Of a stretch of 45,632 bases of DNA, positions 1 to 7,232 are shown one piece after another (positions within the stretch are counted from its first letter, which is position 1; every line of letters begins with the position of its first letter). Under the pieces are notes generated by a model that saw nothing but the letters and a program-made list of their open reading frames with translations, did not search any database and was not told the origin of the DNA. Origin of the DNA: a virus; IMG/VR virus record IMGVR_UViG_3300042934_001363, positions 1 through 45,632 of that record. One strand, written 5' to 3'. Position numbers and translations under genes: made by a program.

Positions 1-1068
1 TCAGCGGGTAGGATCAACCACTTCGCCGACGCGCCGGTAGACGGTCTCGGTGATGCGCTTGTCGGTGTGGCCGAGGAGCTTCGAGGCCCGGCCCAGGTCC
101 TCTATCTCGGACGCTGCTTTCGGCCGGATGTCCCGGAACTGGAACTGGCGGATTGCGGCCGCCAGCATCTCATCGAGGCTTTCTAGCGCTGCCGCTGCTG
201 CCTCTATTCGCGCCTCATCGAAGCGGATCCGGAGCATGCTCGAAGTCAGTCGGCGACCGTCTGGCGTGGTGACCAAATACGGCCCTACCACTCGCCGCTC
301 CTTCCGCTGTTCCAGTAGCTTCTCGACCAGCACGCCCAGGGCTGTCGGTACCTCGCCGGCCAGTAGCCTGATCCGCAGCTTCTTGGACGTCTTGCCTTGG
401 GCAACCAGTAGGAACCCGTCCTGGATGTCGGCGGCGCGAGCCACCAGAACGTCGCTGGGCCGCTGTGCCGTCAGGTAGGCCAGGTCCATGGCGTCGCGCA
501 GCTCGATACAGGCGTGGGCGTAGACCGCATTCCATACCTCGTCCCGCGCATAGAAATCCCGCGGCGTTTCCTTGTTCTTTCGCACGCCCTTGGCCGGGTT
601 CTCCATGTTGGTGACTCCCCATTCCCTGGCGATGTTGTAGACGTGGGATAGCAGGGCGATCTCTCGATTCGCCCGAACCTTCGCCGTCCGCTTGTCCCGG
701 TACTGGGCGATAACCTGCGGCGTCACCGCTTCGACTGGTGCATCGGAGAACGCTGCACGAAGTTGCTTCAGCGATAGCAGGTTGTCCCGCTGTGTCCGGG
801 CTGCCTTCGACGGGACGATCTCCCGCTCGTATCGATCGAACACATCTCCCAGGCGCTTCATGGACTTCGGCATAGTCGTCCGTTCGAGCCGCGCCCATTC
901 CGCTTTCGCCTCATCGAGGTCCCCGCCAAGCGGAATTTCTTTCTGTCCTCCTCCTGGCAGAGTCTGGTTGTAATAGTAGGCCACCCAGATCCTTCCCGAC
1001 TTCAGCTTCCTCATCCTCCTGATCATCCTTGGCGGTAAATCCCTATTGCCTGGCTCCTTTGGGCGCAT
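1..1068 (-). CDS. int: Tyrosine recombinase (prophage integrase)
   Basis: Site-specific recombinase that would integrate and excise the prophage. The 355-residue product has an N-terminal DNA-binding part and a C-terminal catalytic domain with Arg203 (TAQRPSD), Lys229/230 in the beta-hairpin, Arg315 in FRDIR, His334 in LLGHTD and the nucleophile Tyr344. The first His of the usual HxxR box is Arg312 here, a substitution I believe occurs in other phage integrases of this type. The stop codon is the first base of the window, so the left attachment site lies just outside it. The gene follows the DUF4224 gene with almost no gap, as is usual for this integrase class. A tRNA-Ser fragment at 44285-44346 is the matching right end. 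Confidence 0.95.
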   Translation of the reverse strand: MRPKEPGNRDLPPRMIRRMRKLKSGRIWVAYYYNQTLPGGGQKEIPLGGDLDEAKAEWARLERTTMPKSMKRLGDVFDRYEREIVPSKAARTQRDNLLSLKQLRAAFSDAPVEAVTPQVIAQYRDKRTAKVRANREIALLSHVYNIAREWGVTNMENPAKGVRKNKETPRDFYARDEVWNAVYAHACIELRDAMDLAYLTAQRPSDVLVARAADIQDGFLLVAQGKTSKKLRIRLLAGEVPTALGVLVEKLLEQRKERRVVGPYLVTTPDGRRLTSSMLRIRFDEARIEAAAAALESLDEMLAAAIRQFQFRDIRPKAASEIEDLGRASKLLGHTDKRITETVYRRVGEVVDPTR

Positions 1069-4260: not shown

Positions 4261-4455
4261 TCAGGACTCAGCGGCGATACCCCGCACCCGGGGCGCGCTG
4301 CTGTTGAACTCGGCCGCCCGGGTCAGCTCACGCGGTGCCAGGTACGGCAGGGTGGCGATGCTGCCGCCGGCGGCCAGGTACTGCTCGACGGCATGGCCCA
4401 GGATGGCGCGCTGCGGCTCCCGCGCCCGGATGTCGTGGACGAAGTCGGGGATCAT
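4261..4455 (-). CDS. Small phage protein (64 aa), possibly truncated by TGA
   Basis: Begins MIPDFVHDIRAREPQRAILG, continues HAVEQYLAAGG and ends at TGA 4261-4263. The start overlaps the previous gene by four bases (ATGA), so translation is coupled. The frame stays open past the TGA for 36 codons (SKKRAADQHAATFADLLQ and on to EQHSRAG) to a stop at 4150-4152, overlapping the next gene's start at 4190; no start codon precedes that tail. This may be a second nonsense-truncated gene in the operon, or the tail may be chance coding. Unknown function. Confidence 0.6.
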   Translation of the reverse strand: MIPDFVHDIRAREPQRAILGHAVEQYLAAGGSIATLPYLAPRELTRAAEFNSSAPRVRGIAAES

Positions 4456-4655
4456 GCAGTGAGCTCCCCTTCAGTGCGCAGCAGGTTGTCCGCAGTGCGC
4501 CGTGCGGGCACCTTCTGGTCTGCCTTACGGTAGTAGTGGACCCAGGCGCCGTTGGCACGGCGCTCGGCGCGATAGGGCCAGCACTCGAAGCCCAGCATGC
4601 GGGCACGCGAAATCACTGCCGCCGGGCTACGCCCGATGATAGGTAGGGTGATCAT
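4452..4655 (-). CDS. Small basic phage protein (67 aa)
   Basis: A 67-residue, arginine-rich protein (MITLPIIGRSPAAVISRARM, then GFECWPYRAERRANGAWVHYY). I recognise the style of small early Pseudomonas phage proteins but no family. The basic charge would suit nucleic-acid binding. Its stop overlaps the start of the 4261-4455 gene by four bases. Upstream lies a 377-base stretch without a gene that contains the candidate structured RNA at 4786-4888. Confidence 0.6.
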   Translation of the reverse strand: MITLPIIGRSPAAVISRARMLGFECWPYRAERRANGAWVHYYRKADQKVPARRTADNLLRTEGELTA

Positions 4656-4785
4656 GATGATGGTCTCGGGATGGCGCCGAGCGGCGCGGGGGAATAGGTG
4701 CCGGCTTCAGGGTTGAACCGTGGCCGGCGGTGATGCAGTGCCAGTGCCTGTTGTGTGCTAACTGGCGCGACTCCGTCTTCCTGCA

Positions 4786-4888
4786 TCGGGGAGCGTCATG
4801 GGCTTCCTACGGCGCCCAGGTACTGAGGTCATGACACGGACCGGCTTCCCTGGGGTAGGTCGCAAGCGACCACCATGACGCTCTCCGA
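4786..4888. ncRNA. Candidate structured RNA (three-way junction) in a gene-free gap
   Basis: In the gap 4656-5032 the arm at 4786-4801 pairs with 4873-4888: sixteen positions, all Watson-Crick except one G-U if the plus strand is transcribed (an A-C mismatch on the minus strand). Within it, CCTAC plus CCCAGG (4806-4820) pair with CCTGGG plus GTAGG (4849-4859), enclosing GGTC...GACC; and a further small hairpin (GGTCG, loop CAAG, CGACC) sits at about 4858-4871. Together these form a closing stem with two internal branches. It lies inside the leftward operon, between the 86-residue and 67-residue genes. A riboswitch-like, attenuator or independent small-RNA role is possible; I match it to no known family. 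Confidence 0.5.
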
Positions 4889-5032
4889 TACAGTCCCCGT
4901 GACGTGGGGAATACGGCCTGGCCCTCGGCGGAGGTAGAAGCTGGTGACCAATGCCAGGCTGCCGGTGATGTGCGCTCCGCCGGCTGGCGCTCCTGGGTAT
5001 CCGCTGAGGCGGCCCGCCAGGGCGGGGCTAGA

Positions 5033-5293
5033 TCAGGTGGAGCGGGGTGGAGTGATCAGTTCGTTGAAACGTGACGTGTCACGCTGGGCGATCTGATCGG
5101 CAGAGTGAATCAGCAGGGTCAGCACCTCAGCGCGCTGCTCGAAGCCGCCAGCGGCGCAGATCCGGTCTAGCGCCTCGGCGGTGCGCTGGTACATCTCGAA
5201 CGGCATCACCTGGTGGCCCAGGGCGGCCAGGCGCTCGGCCTCGCGCTTTCGTTGGTCAGCCTTTCGCTCGGCGGCGGTCTTCGGTGTGGTCAT
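5033..5293 (-). CDS. Small phage protein with basic N-terminus (86 aa)
   Basis: Starts with a lysine/arginine-rich helix (KTAAERKADQRKREAERL) followed by a compact region with EALDRICAAGGFEQRAEVLT. The layout resembles small ribbon-helix-helix-like or plasmid-partition accessory proteins, but this is only resemblance. Its start overlaps the LuxR-like gene by four bases (ATGA), so it belongs to the same leftward early operon. After its stop a 377-base gap begins, with a GC-rich inverted repeat at about 5008-5026 (GCCCGCC-AG-GGCGGGG) and then the candidate RNA. Confidence 0.6.
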   Translation of the reverse strand: MTTPKTAAERKADQRKREAERLAALGHQVMPFEMYQRTAEALDRICAAGGFEQRAEVLTLLIHSADQIAQRDTSRFNELITPPRST

Positions 5294-5897: not shown

Positions 5898-6118
5898 GCT
5901 TGCGTCCTCTGCAGGCGAATGCCGCGGGAGATACCCGGCAGCAGCTTCAGGAATCCTTTCTTCTCCAGCGCCAGCAGGTGCTCGTGGGCGCCGTTGTGTG
6001 AGGTCATGCCCAGGGCCTTGGCCAGCTCGGCCCGGGTGGGAGGCATCTCGTGCTGCTGGATGAAGACCTCGACCGCCTCCAGCACCTGCAGCTGTCGCGG
6101 CGTTAGCTTCTCGGCCAT
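5894..6118 (-). CDS. LexA N-terminal-like winged-helix protein
   Basis: A 74-residue protein that consists only of a LexA-type DNA-binding domain: LTPRQLQVLEAVEVFIQQHE, MPPTRAELAKALGMTS and HLLALEKKGFLKLLPG correspond to the three helices and wing of LexA_DNA_bind. The peptidase half of LexA is absent, so it cannot self-cleave in the SOS response. It is the first gene of the PL transcript, with a 300-base leader between promoter and start. It could compete at SOS boxes or repress a phage promoter; that is inference. Confidence 0.75.
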   Translation of the reverse strand: MAEKLTPRQLQVLEAVEVFIQQHEMPPTRAELAKALGMTSHNGAHEHLLALEKKGFLKLLPGISRGIRLQRTQA

Positions 6119-6421
6119 GGCGGTCTCCTGTTCGTTTGTCTTCCCGGCTGGCCCTGACCATCCAAGGCCAGCGAGGAAAACTGCTCTCCGCCACGCGCAT
6201 CGCCGGGGTCGTCCCTCAGGCCATCGCGCCTACAGGGCGGTGGATGACTGGCTTGCGTGGCTTCGCTCGGCAGGGTGTATTGCCGAGGCCAGTACCAGAG
6301 CTGGCATGGGAGCCGAAATTTGTAGCCCGCGCTGTACGCCTGGTGGCGGATCGGCTCGCGGGGGTCTCGAATTGTGTAAAGAGCAGGGCGGCTTTCGCTG
6401 CCGGGCAGTTGTCGCTGCCTG
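6119..6421 (-). other. Long leader of the leftward early transcript
   Basis: About 300 bases lie between the predicted PL start point and the LexA-like gene. An open frame (6216-6440) crosses it, reading FGSHASSGTGLGNTP and CRAKPRKPVIHR, which I have the impression of seeing in Pseudomonas prophages. Its ATG lies upstream of the predicted transcription start, so it cannot be translated from PL as drawn. The leader may carry antitermination signals or a small RNA; I cannot define boxes by eye. Confidence 0.3.
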
Positions 6422-6471
6422 TGATTGAATAATCACGCATCGTGATTCATGAGTCAACACGTAATGTGATC
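6421..6471 (-). promoter_or_regulatory. PL promoter with two repressor operators (OL)
   Basis: On the minus strand TTGACT (6457-6452) is followed 17 bases later by GATTAT (6434-6429), a good sigma70 promoter. Operator 1, AATCACGCATCGTGATT at 6431-6447, is a perfect palindrome with seven-base arms covering the spacer and -10. Operator 2 at 6457-6471 (AACACGTAATGTGATC) abuts and overlaps the -35 by one base. Centres are 24 bp apart, about two helical turns. Both share CAC-N5-GTG with sites between cI and cro, so the CI-like repressor probably shuts PL as lambda CI does at OL. A third dyad, GTGATTGAATAATCAC (6421-6436), overlaps the start point. Confidence 0.75.
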
Positions 6472-6583
6472 ATTTTTTGCGGGCGTGATCGTCGGTACGT
6501 GCGGGCTGGTTACCCGATGGACCGCGATTCGAATGGATGGGTAGGGCTTATCATGGCCGCCGTATCAGATTAGGAGACGACCC

Positions 6584-6844
6584 ATGCCCCACAACCTCGC
6601 GAACCGATCAGCAGACGAGCGCCGTGCGATCGAGGATCACAAGGCTGAGCTGTTCGAGTTCTGGAAGGCAAACAAGGACCGCTGCAACGGTGACGCCGCG
6701 CGGATCTTCGGGGCGAAGGAGAAGAAGGGGAAGGGCTGGCGCGCCTGGGCCGACCTGGAGCTGGCCGGCATAGAGCCCCAGCAGTACCGCAACATGGTGC
6801 TCGCCGAGATGAACCGGCTGCAGAGCGGGAAGCCGCGGGAGTAG
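6584..6844 (+). CDS. Small hypothetical phage protein (86 aa)
   Basis: An 86-residue charged protein (RSADERRAIEDHKAELFEFW, then ARIFGAKEKKGKGWRAWADL). The start ATG at 6584 has AGGAGA eight bases upstream. Family not recognised; the lysine-rich central turn and helical flanks suggest a DNA- or protein-binding adaptor. It is transcribed away from PL, from a promoter I cannot place with confidence in 6472-6583, and begins a rightward accessory pair with 6951-7232. Confidence 0.65.
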   Translation: MPHNLANRSADERRAIEDHKAELFEFWKANKDRCNGDAARIFGAKEKKGKGWRAWADLELAGIEPQQYRNMVLAEMNRLQSGKPRE

Positions 6845-6892
6845 GAGCGAAAATCACTGCTCGCGAGCTTTGCTACAAGTCTTTTCCATTCG

Positions 6893-6920
6893 TTGCCAGC
6901 CTGCTACCAGCGACTATCTT
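6893..6920 (+). promoter_or_regulatory. Candidate sigma70 promoter for the 6951 gene
   Basis: TTGCCA (6893-6898) and TATCTT (6915-6920) stand 16 bases apart, 31 bases before the ATG at 6951, which has GAGGTGG as ribosome site. The surrounding 100 bases are more AT-rich than the phage average, as expected for an independently expressed accessory gene. Confidence 0.4.
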
Positions 6921-6950
6921 TCAAATAGTAAGACTTAGCTGAGGTGGCAT

Positions 6951-7232
6951 ATGGATAGGTTGAGAGATCGTCTCGCTGCGCTTCGTCCTCCTATTGGCCA
7001 TTTTCTGGAATGGAGAGAGGATGGCCTCCTGATCACGCTCCTAGATCCATCGCTACCGGCCAAGGTATCAAGGCTGGTTGATCGTAAGCACATGGCAGAC
7101 GCCCAATACCTCAACCTGATTGTGCTACATGCTGTAAACGAACTCCGGAGCAAAGGCTCATTGGTGCCCTTAGAGGCCGATACCGTCCTCGTCAAACAGG
7201 GGGCGGAGGCGTCGGCAGAAACTTATAGCTGA
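6951..7232 (+). CDS. Hypothetical protein, paralogue of the 43626-43877 product
   Basis: A 93-residue protein of unknown function. Its core (PPIGHFLEWREDGLLITLLD, VSRLVDRKHMADAQYLNLIV, LHAVNELR) is repeated almost position for position by the gene at 43626-43877 near the other end of the prophage; both share LHAVNELR-KGS and VPLEADTVLVK. No signal peptide or membrane segment is visible. Two diverged copies in one prophage suggest either duplication or acquisition from two sources and a selected accessory role. ATG 6951 is supported by GAGGTGG five bases upstream. Confidence 0.7.
   Translation: MDRLRDRLAALRPPIGHFLEWREDGLLITLLDPSLPAKVSRLVDRKHMADAQYLNLIVLHAVNELRSKGSLVPLEADTVLVKQGAEASAETYS

Follow-up and report, generated by a model that had tools for sequence, protein, structure and literature searches.

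The gap between positions 4656 and 5032 of the window (the whole stretch analysed, 45,632 nucleotides, IMG/VR record IMGVR_UViG_3300042934_001363) holds 377 bases without a gene, and the question that this locus raises is what kind of element lies there and what it might do. The initial annotation had placed a candidate new structured RNA at 4786-4888, closed by arms of 16 nt with one wobble, and both the arms and the gene-free gap were found as it described them. The surrounding genes include those for an integrase, a cytosine methylase, a LuxR-type 'sigma factor' family member, a LexA-type protein and a CI repressor (phrogs and Pfam), and the terminase gene DNA is 82.7% identical to that of Pseudomonas phage LPPA33. 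As in most of the loci described below, the element sits among early genes in the leftward early operon. It lies ~5 kb beyond the CI gene, with ORF 4452-4655 directly downstream. The gene order recurs at other loci, where reading of the sequences assigned a CI-like gene upstream and ERF-like, YqaJ-like and SSB genes downstream.

Folding of 4786-4888 gave -57.3 kcal/mol (z -5.0) on the plus strand and -50.5 kcal/mol (z -3.4) on the minus strand, values that none of 200 shuffles equalled. The argument that helices of this length seldom arise by chance carries little weight on its own, since the best comparable inverted repeat in the window measures 21 bp and plain shuffles of the GC-rich window yield repeats of 18-20 bp (one mismatch allowed in both cases). 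The arm length is thus unremarkable in this window and the case rests on relatives. Nothing in the window reached gathering score in the Rfam search, and no Rfam family covers the element. A weak likeness to a cobalamin riboswitch core had also been suggested; a permissive search of 4640-5060 (up to E 10) returned no cobalamin family and nothing on the element.

Loci at the same site were fetched by means of two flanking genes, not by the pattern of the element itself, and were aligned on the minus strand. The flanks and the two ends (CUGYAUCGG and CCGAUGCAG) are conserved, and between them the interior is unrelated, with arms that match. At least six different arm sequences were present among the relatives found through neighbouring genes, all of them paired, and element length ranged from 86 to 130 nt. 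One inside is common to the window and loci L146, L145, L142, L080 and L118; other insides occur in L143/L147, L149, L157, L151, L156 and L144, where the inner arms differ and still pair in every case. L118 has the inside of the window in unrelated flanks, and L080 has it with the same 3' neighbour and a different 5' neighbour. Conservation of sequence with loss of pairing would have spoken against an RNA; the opposite was found, as homologues change sequence and retain pairing. A 44-aa ORF that starts in one arm (4652-4786, minus strand) was considered as a coding alternative and is not conserved, its ATG being lost in L144 and its frame shifted in L090; these two changes, together with the free variation in length, exclude it.

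The comparison also redrew the boundaries. The hairpin is real, but the extent of 103 nt fell short; the true element runs from 4781 to 4893 on the minus strand, is closed by a clamp of 20 bp and begins and ends in the window with CTGTATCGG...CCGATGCAG. The features at this site are as follows.

4957..5027, minus strand: divergent Proteo-phage-1 motif (RF03044, 27.2 bits), 46 nt upstream of hairpin b
4894..4910, minus strand: hairpin b, UCCCC-ACGUCAC-GGGGA, adjoining the 5' side of the clamp
4781..4893, minus strand: whole clamped element (113 nt), made up of the 20-bp clamp P1 and the head, as defined from same-site homologues and copies elsewhere
4874..4893, minus strand: 5' arm of clamp P1, nine conserved nt (CUGUAUCGG) and then 11 variable nt (AGAGCGUCAUG), pairing with 4781-4800
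4801..4873, minus strand: head (hypervariable insert), with hairpins P2 and P3 and a conserved single strand (CGCCGUAGGAAG), from RNAalifold of six homologues
4858..4871, minus strand: hairpin P2, GGUCG-CUUG-CGACC, one C-G pair being swapped to G-C in relatives
4815..4854, minus strand: hairpin P3, in which a covarying outer helix and a short inner one flank the internal loop GAA/AGUA
4781..4800, minus strand: 3' arm of clamp P1, 11 variable nt and then CCGAUGCAG
4729..4780, minus strand: 3' module, GAAGACGGAGUCGC-hairpin-CUGCAUCACC, which terminates in a further copy of the clamp end and is common to L080 and close relatives

RNAalifold on the six close homologues predicted a three-way junction on the minus strand (-54.9 kcal/mol, with four pairs showing compensatory changes), the plan originally proposed; the plus strand of the same six scored a weaker -50.0. 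The internal loop of P3 (GAA...CAGUA) is invariant in the six sequences, the inner helix being GGU/ACC or GGU/GCC, and the loop looks like a bulged-G (loop E) motif.

Scans based on the window's own arms recovered few homologues because the arms vary. When IMG/VR was scanned with a 14-mer from a single arm, most matches were due to chance, and three loci besides the window carried the element. A gapped scan with both arms gave 23 loci, five of them true homologues, and in bacterial and archaeal genomes it gave a single match, by chance. Viral contigs were therefore searched for the two ends with a gap between them. Two populations were obtained, chance matches with 9-13 paired bases versus ~190 matches with 18-28 (both strands counted), and removal of duplicates and orientation by upstream sequence left 106 distinct elements of 84-145 bp. 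They comprise 67 distinct arm pairs. The clamp measures exactly 20 bp: pairing stands at 91% at position 20 and 40% at position 21, against a background of about 23-51% deeper in. The outer nine pairs are fixed except for a C-G/U-G alternation at pair 4, and the inner eleven all vary, with three to six standard pair types at each. Overall 96.6% of cells are paired, and 235 cells are changed on both sides, compared with 59 +/- 7.5 in shuffled and at most 63 in slid arms. As a guard against circular selection, a set of 34 loci was retrieved by the upstream core only; in 30 of the 32 that were usable the 3' arm pairs at 16 or more of the 20 positions, and of the remaining two, one pairs on visual inspection with a one-base bulge. 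A mismatch near pair 7 is found in many of these loci and in the copies of phages MD8, Itty13 and Haboob. Directly 5' of the clamp, 105 of the 106 elements carry hairpin b, with varied and covarying stems and often GNRA or UUCG loops. Given this massive covariation of the closing helix in a region lacking an Rfam match at gathering score, the proposal of a new structured RNA is upheld, and the element is very probably a modular structured RNA. Judged from the sequences collected, it is widespread in temperate phages, and the named phages in which it occurs whole or in part (among them Itty13, Orimi01, Shamal, Haboob, MD8 and PS-1) are Pseudomonas phages.

Several features point to the sense strand. 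Outside position 10, arm wobbles comprise 43 G-U versus 8 A-C when read on that strand, of the 49 head clusters nine show T-arm-like motifs in the sense and none in the antisense orientation (0.075 expected), and the GNRA and UUCG loops of hairpin b are also read on it. The predicted biological strand in the window is minus, the direction of the operon. Clamp position 10, where the fixed part meets the variable part, is the exception to the strand bias: 25 of the 67 arm pairs have a directional A.C there, the A lying in the 5' arm in every case except one, and this would become G.U on the opposite strand, which counts against the assignment.

The 106 elements contain 26 5' clusters, 49 heads and 32 3' clusters in 79 different combinations, and the 3' module of the window is itself swapped for others elsewhere. 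One large upstream type is Proteo-phage-1 (58 of 144 copies by nhmmer), a motif reportedly defined in Weinberg et al. 2017; a full-text literature search found no mention of Proteo-phage-1 or RF03044. Matches to RF03044 were present in 30 of 50 element-bearing records, 19 of them above threshold, and in none of 14 controls. The match in the window has an E-value of 1.5e-4 for the whole record and lies under the gathering score of 42; its close relatives score 21-28 bits. In L160, L164, L266 and L271 Proteo-phage-1 is followed by a spacer of ~55-65 nt and then by the clamp, and the window has the same order on the same strand. Proteo-phage-1 is an orphan phage RNA motif a short way upstream of the element and on its strand, to which the element gives a context. 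The two differ in extent and occurrence: the Rfam model is only 82 nt long and stops before hairpin b and the clamp, stand-alone copies without a clamp exist, and many clamps have other 5' modules. High-scoring copies with no clamp after them were seen in L382 (G041:25483-25562) and L383 (G044:26474-26551), and in G044 a terminator-like hairpin comes after the copy, as does a coding sequence resembling a tail protein.

The head of the window is one of the 49 head clusters and itself lacks tRNA features; no tRNA was found by Rfam in the window or by ARAGORN near the element (L001). Five other heads, all inside clamps, pass the gathering score of the Rfam tRNA family (RF00005), namely those of L310 (45.6 bits), L259 (40.6), L290 (34.3), L361 (33.1) and L156 (29.9). 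ARAGORN called no tRNA gene in these five, in which reading of the sequence shows D- and T-arm-like parts and no normal anticodon arm. Such features are confined to about a fifth of the head clusters. Folded alone, heads are on average no more stable than shuffles (mean z -0.16), so that many may lack structure or have tertiary folds only. The 3' modules of L161, L201, L209, L306 and others have a pair of hairpins with complementary loops (GCUGA/UCAGC) that bracket a further variable stretch. This kissing contact between 3'-module hairpins is conserved and shows no covariation. The same bracket occurs inside some clamps, in the heads of L143, L269, L330 and L345, which indicates that modules nest.

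The combination of a constant clamp with phage-specific, sometimes tRNA-like heads suggests a fast-evolving RNA weapon or decoy. The best explanation, with a rough probability of 0.45 that averages a safe identity and a more speculative function, is a clamped modular RNA whose head has a decoy role. That the RNA offers host factors an exchangeable decoy, in many cases resembling a tRNA elbow, is a best guess only, possible though doubtful. Hairpin b and the 20-bp clamp would form a base that presents the head at a fixed distance, with the outer 9 bp fixed and the inner 11 bp, about one turn of an RNA helix, free in sequence provided that pairing holds. Heads, 5' modules and 3' modules are shuffled between phages. 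The RNA would be made in early infection or lysogeny. The head would act as a decoy or inhibitor by binding a host RNA-binding factor, one that in the case of tRNA-like heads may read the tRNA elbow or the acceptor end. Conflict with host defences or other phages would then drive replacement of the head on a constant base, and differing or changing targets would select for diversity among the heads. It is in this sense, tentatively, that the element may be a form of phage RNA display, a constant base and a sequence-free clamp carrying heads that are shuffled in the manner of variable domains and imitate or block host RNA-binding factors, for instance those specific for the tRNA elbow, in a defence conflict.

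The main rivals to the decoy reading are transcription-linked or RNA-processing roles. The element could be a cis-acting part of the early transcript, its clamp serving as an RNase III site or RNA antiterminator and its head being drifting filler, an account only slightly less probable than the decoy. Most loci lie inside the leftward early operon and the position between genes suits a role in cis. RNase III needs about two helical turns, and a clamp of exactly 20 bp regardless of sequence resembles this requirement; as an uninterrupted helix of ~20 bp or more it has the form of a substrate, with cleavage only putative. In addition, the putRNA of HK022, an RNA of ~70 nt with two stem-loops that is promoter-proximal, can modify polymerase (PMC9378689). 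The likeness to this two-hairpin RNA of lambdoid early transcripts is limited, since the element does not qualify as a putRNA, being a 113-nt structure with a 20-bp clamp and an exchangeable head that in the window lies ~5 kb past the CI gene, whereas put sites are promoter-close (PMC9378689). Mere filler, moreover, would not retain tRNA folds on one strand only or an internal loop (GAA/AGUA) invariant in six sequences, and the fixed outer 9 bp also argue against this account. Finally, some copies are not within a downstream operon. Itty13 has three tandem elements opposed to the strand of the neighbouring genes, and L224 has two copies directly after a tRNA-Asp gene with head genes beyond on the opposite strand, which indicates independence from any one gene.

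Recognition of folded single-stranded DNA, with the element as a palindromic cassette or recombination site (MITE-like or attC-like), is a good deal less probable. The terminal inverted repeats with conserved ends, the size of 84-145 bp, the same element in foreign contexts (L118) and the tandem arrays would all be in keeping with it, and integron attC sites likewise have conserved ends, paired variable stems and a similar size. The ends of the element (CTGYATCGG and CCGATGCAG) nevertheless lack the attC boxes R'' RYYYAAC and R' GTTRRRY, and scans with phrogs and Pfam identified no transposase or integron integrase among the neighbouring genes of the window. The ends of transposons do not normally covary with each other. 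The evidence favours RNA: every element that could be oriented has the same direction with respect to its upstream module, G.U pairs are biased to one strand, hairpin b has RNA tetraloops and the tRNA features are sense-only.

A riboswitch, T-box-like leader or attenuator for ORF 4452-4655, as the initial annotation had entertained, is improbable in spite of the element's position directly upstream of that ORF. No conserved aptamer is present, the putative sensing part being the very part that is replaced wholesale among phages, and no riboswitch family matched in Rfam at permissive settings. The 3' modules and downstream genes vary, and no terminator lies nearby. Some copies stand in tandem or next to a tRNA gene, where that strand carries no gene downstream. 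In many members, repeats of the clamp ends on either side (CCGAU upstream, CUGCAUC downstream) would permit alternative, attenuator-like pairings, but the upstream repeat in the window is degenerate (CCGUAU), and the repeats, although common, are invariant, so that covariation is uninformative about the pairing. That the family is a diverged phage tRNA array, decayed genes kept by accident, is scarcely credible despite the tRNA-like heads and the position of the L224 copies, as most heads lack tRNA features and decay would not conserve hairpin b or a compensating, covarying 20-bp clamp.

Among described RNAs the nearest analogues of the clamped modular RNA are GOLLD and ROOL, from which it differs in architecture and size. 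These too are RNAs of phages and prophages that lack an assigned function and have a variable linker set in a conserved frame, and the linkers can hold tRNAs (PMC12286853). The element is far smaller, its variable part is a head on a clamp of fixed length, its modules are exchanged, and neither family gave an Rfam match. As a working idea only, RNA anti-CRISPRs and decoy RNAs offer the parallel of a host RNA mimicked by a phage, but here the likeness is to tRNA and concerns some heads only. No description of a hypervariable or tRNA-like phage RNA was found in the literature searched, though a prior description elsewhere is possible, and the phage RNA element is apparently undescribed. What normally identifies a structured RNA is conservation of its sequence or of a core fold. 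In this family the part that looks functional is the part that is replaced, and the clamp preserves only length and pairing; such a design implies that diversity of the RNA itself is selected for, something that is known for phage proteins and of which no description was found for phage RNAs. Dozens of natural head variants are available, some of them in isolated phages of Pseudomonas aeruginosa and P. syringae, so that function could be tested by simple deletion or exchange of heads. If the heads are decoys, the list of heads is also a list of unknown host targets.

Further variation was seen around the element. Past the second copy of CUGCAUC, the short stretch of the window is replaced in L142, L143 and L145 by ~230 nt of other sequence with more hairpins, and this is a second exchange point. 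L147 has a short ORF (MKDLTATIITIALMLSSFG...), by appearance a membrane protein, inserted between the upstream gene and the Proteo-phage-1-like motif. L145, a close relative of the window phage, carries another orphan motif, a strong DUF3800-VII RNA (RF02967, 75.5 bits, L145:1256-1342, minus strand), a few kb from the element, and in Pseudomonas phage Haboob (L373, locus 6018-7127) a gene for an RNA-directed DNA polymerase lies ~2 kb downstream on the same strand. In the window, the 3' module is directly followed by a 6-bp hairpin (GCCGGC...GCCGGC, 4700-4728, minus strand) whose loop holds GGTTCAACCC and resembles a tRNA T-loop, possibly by chance.
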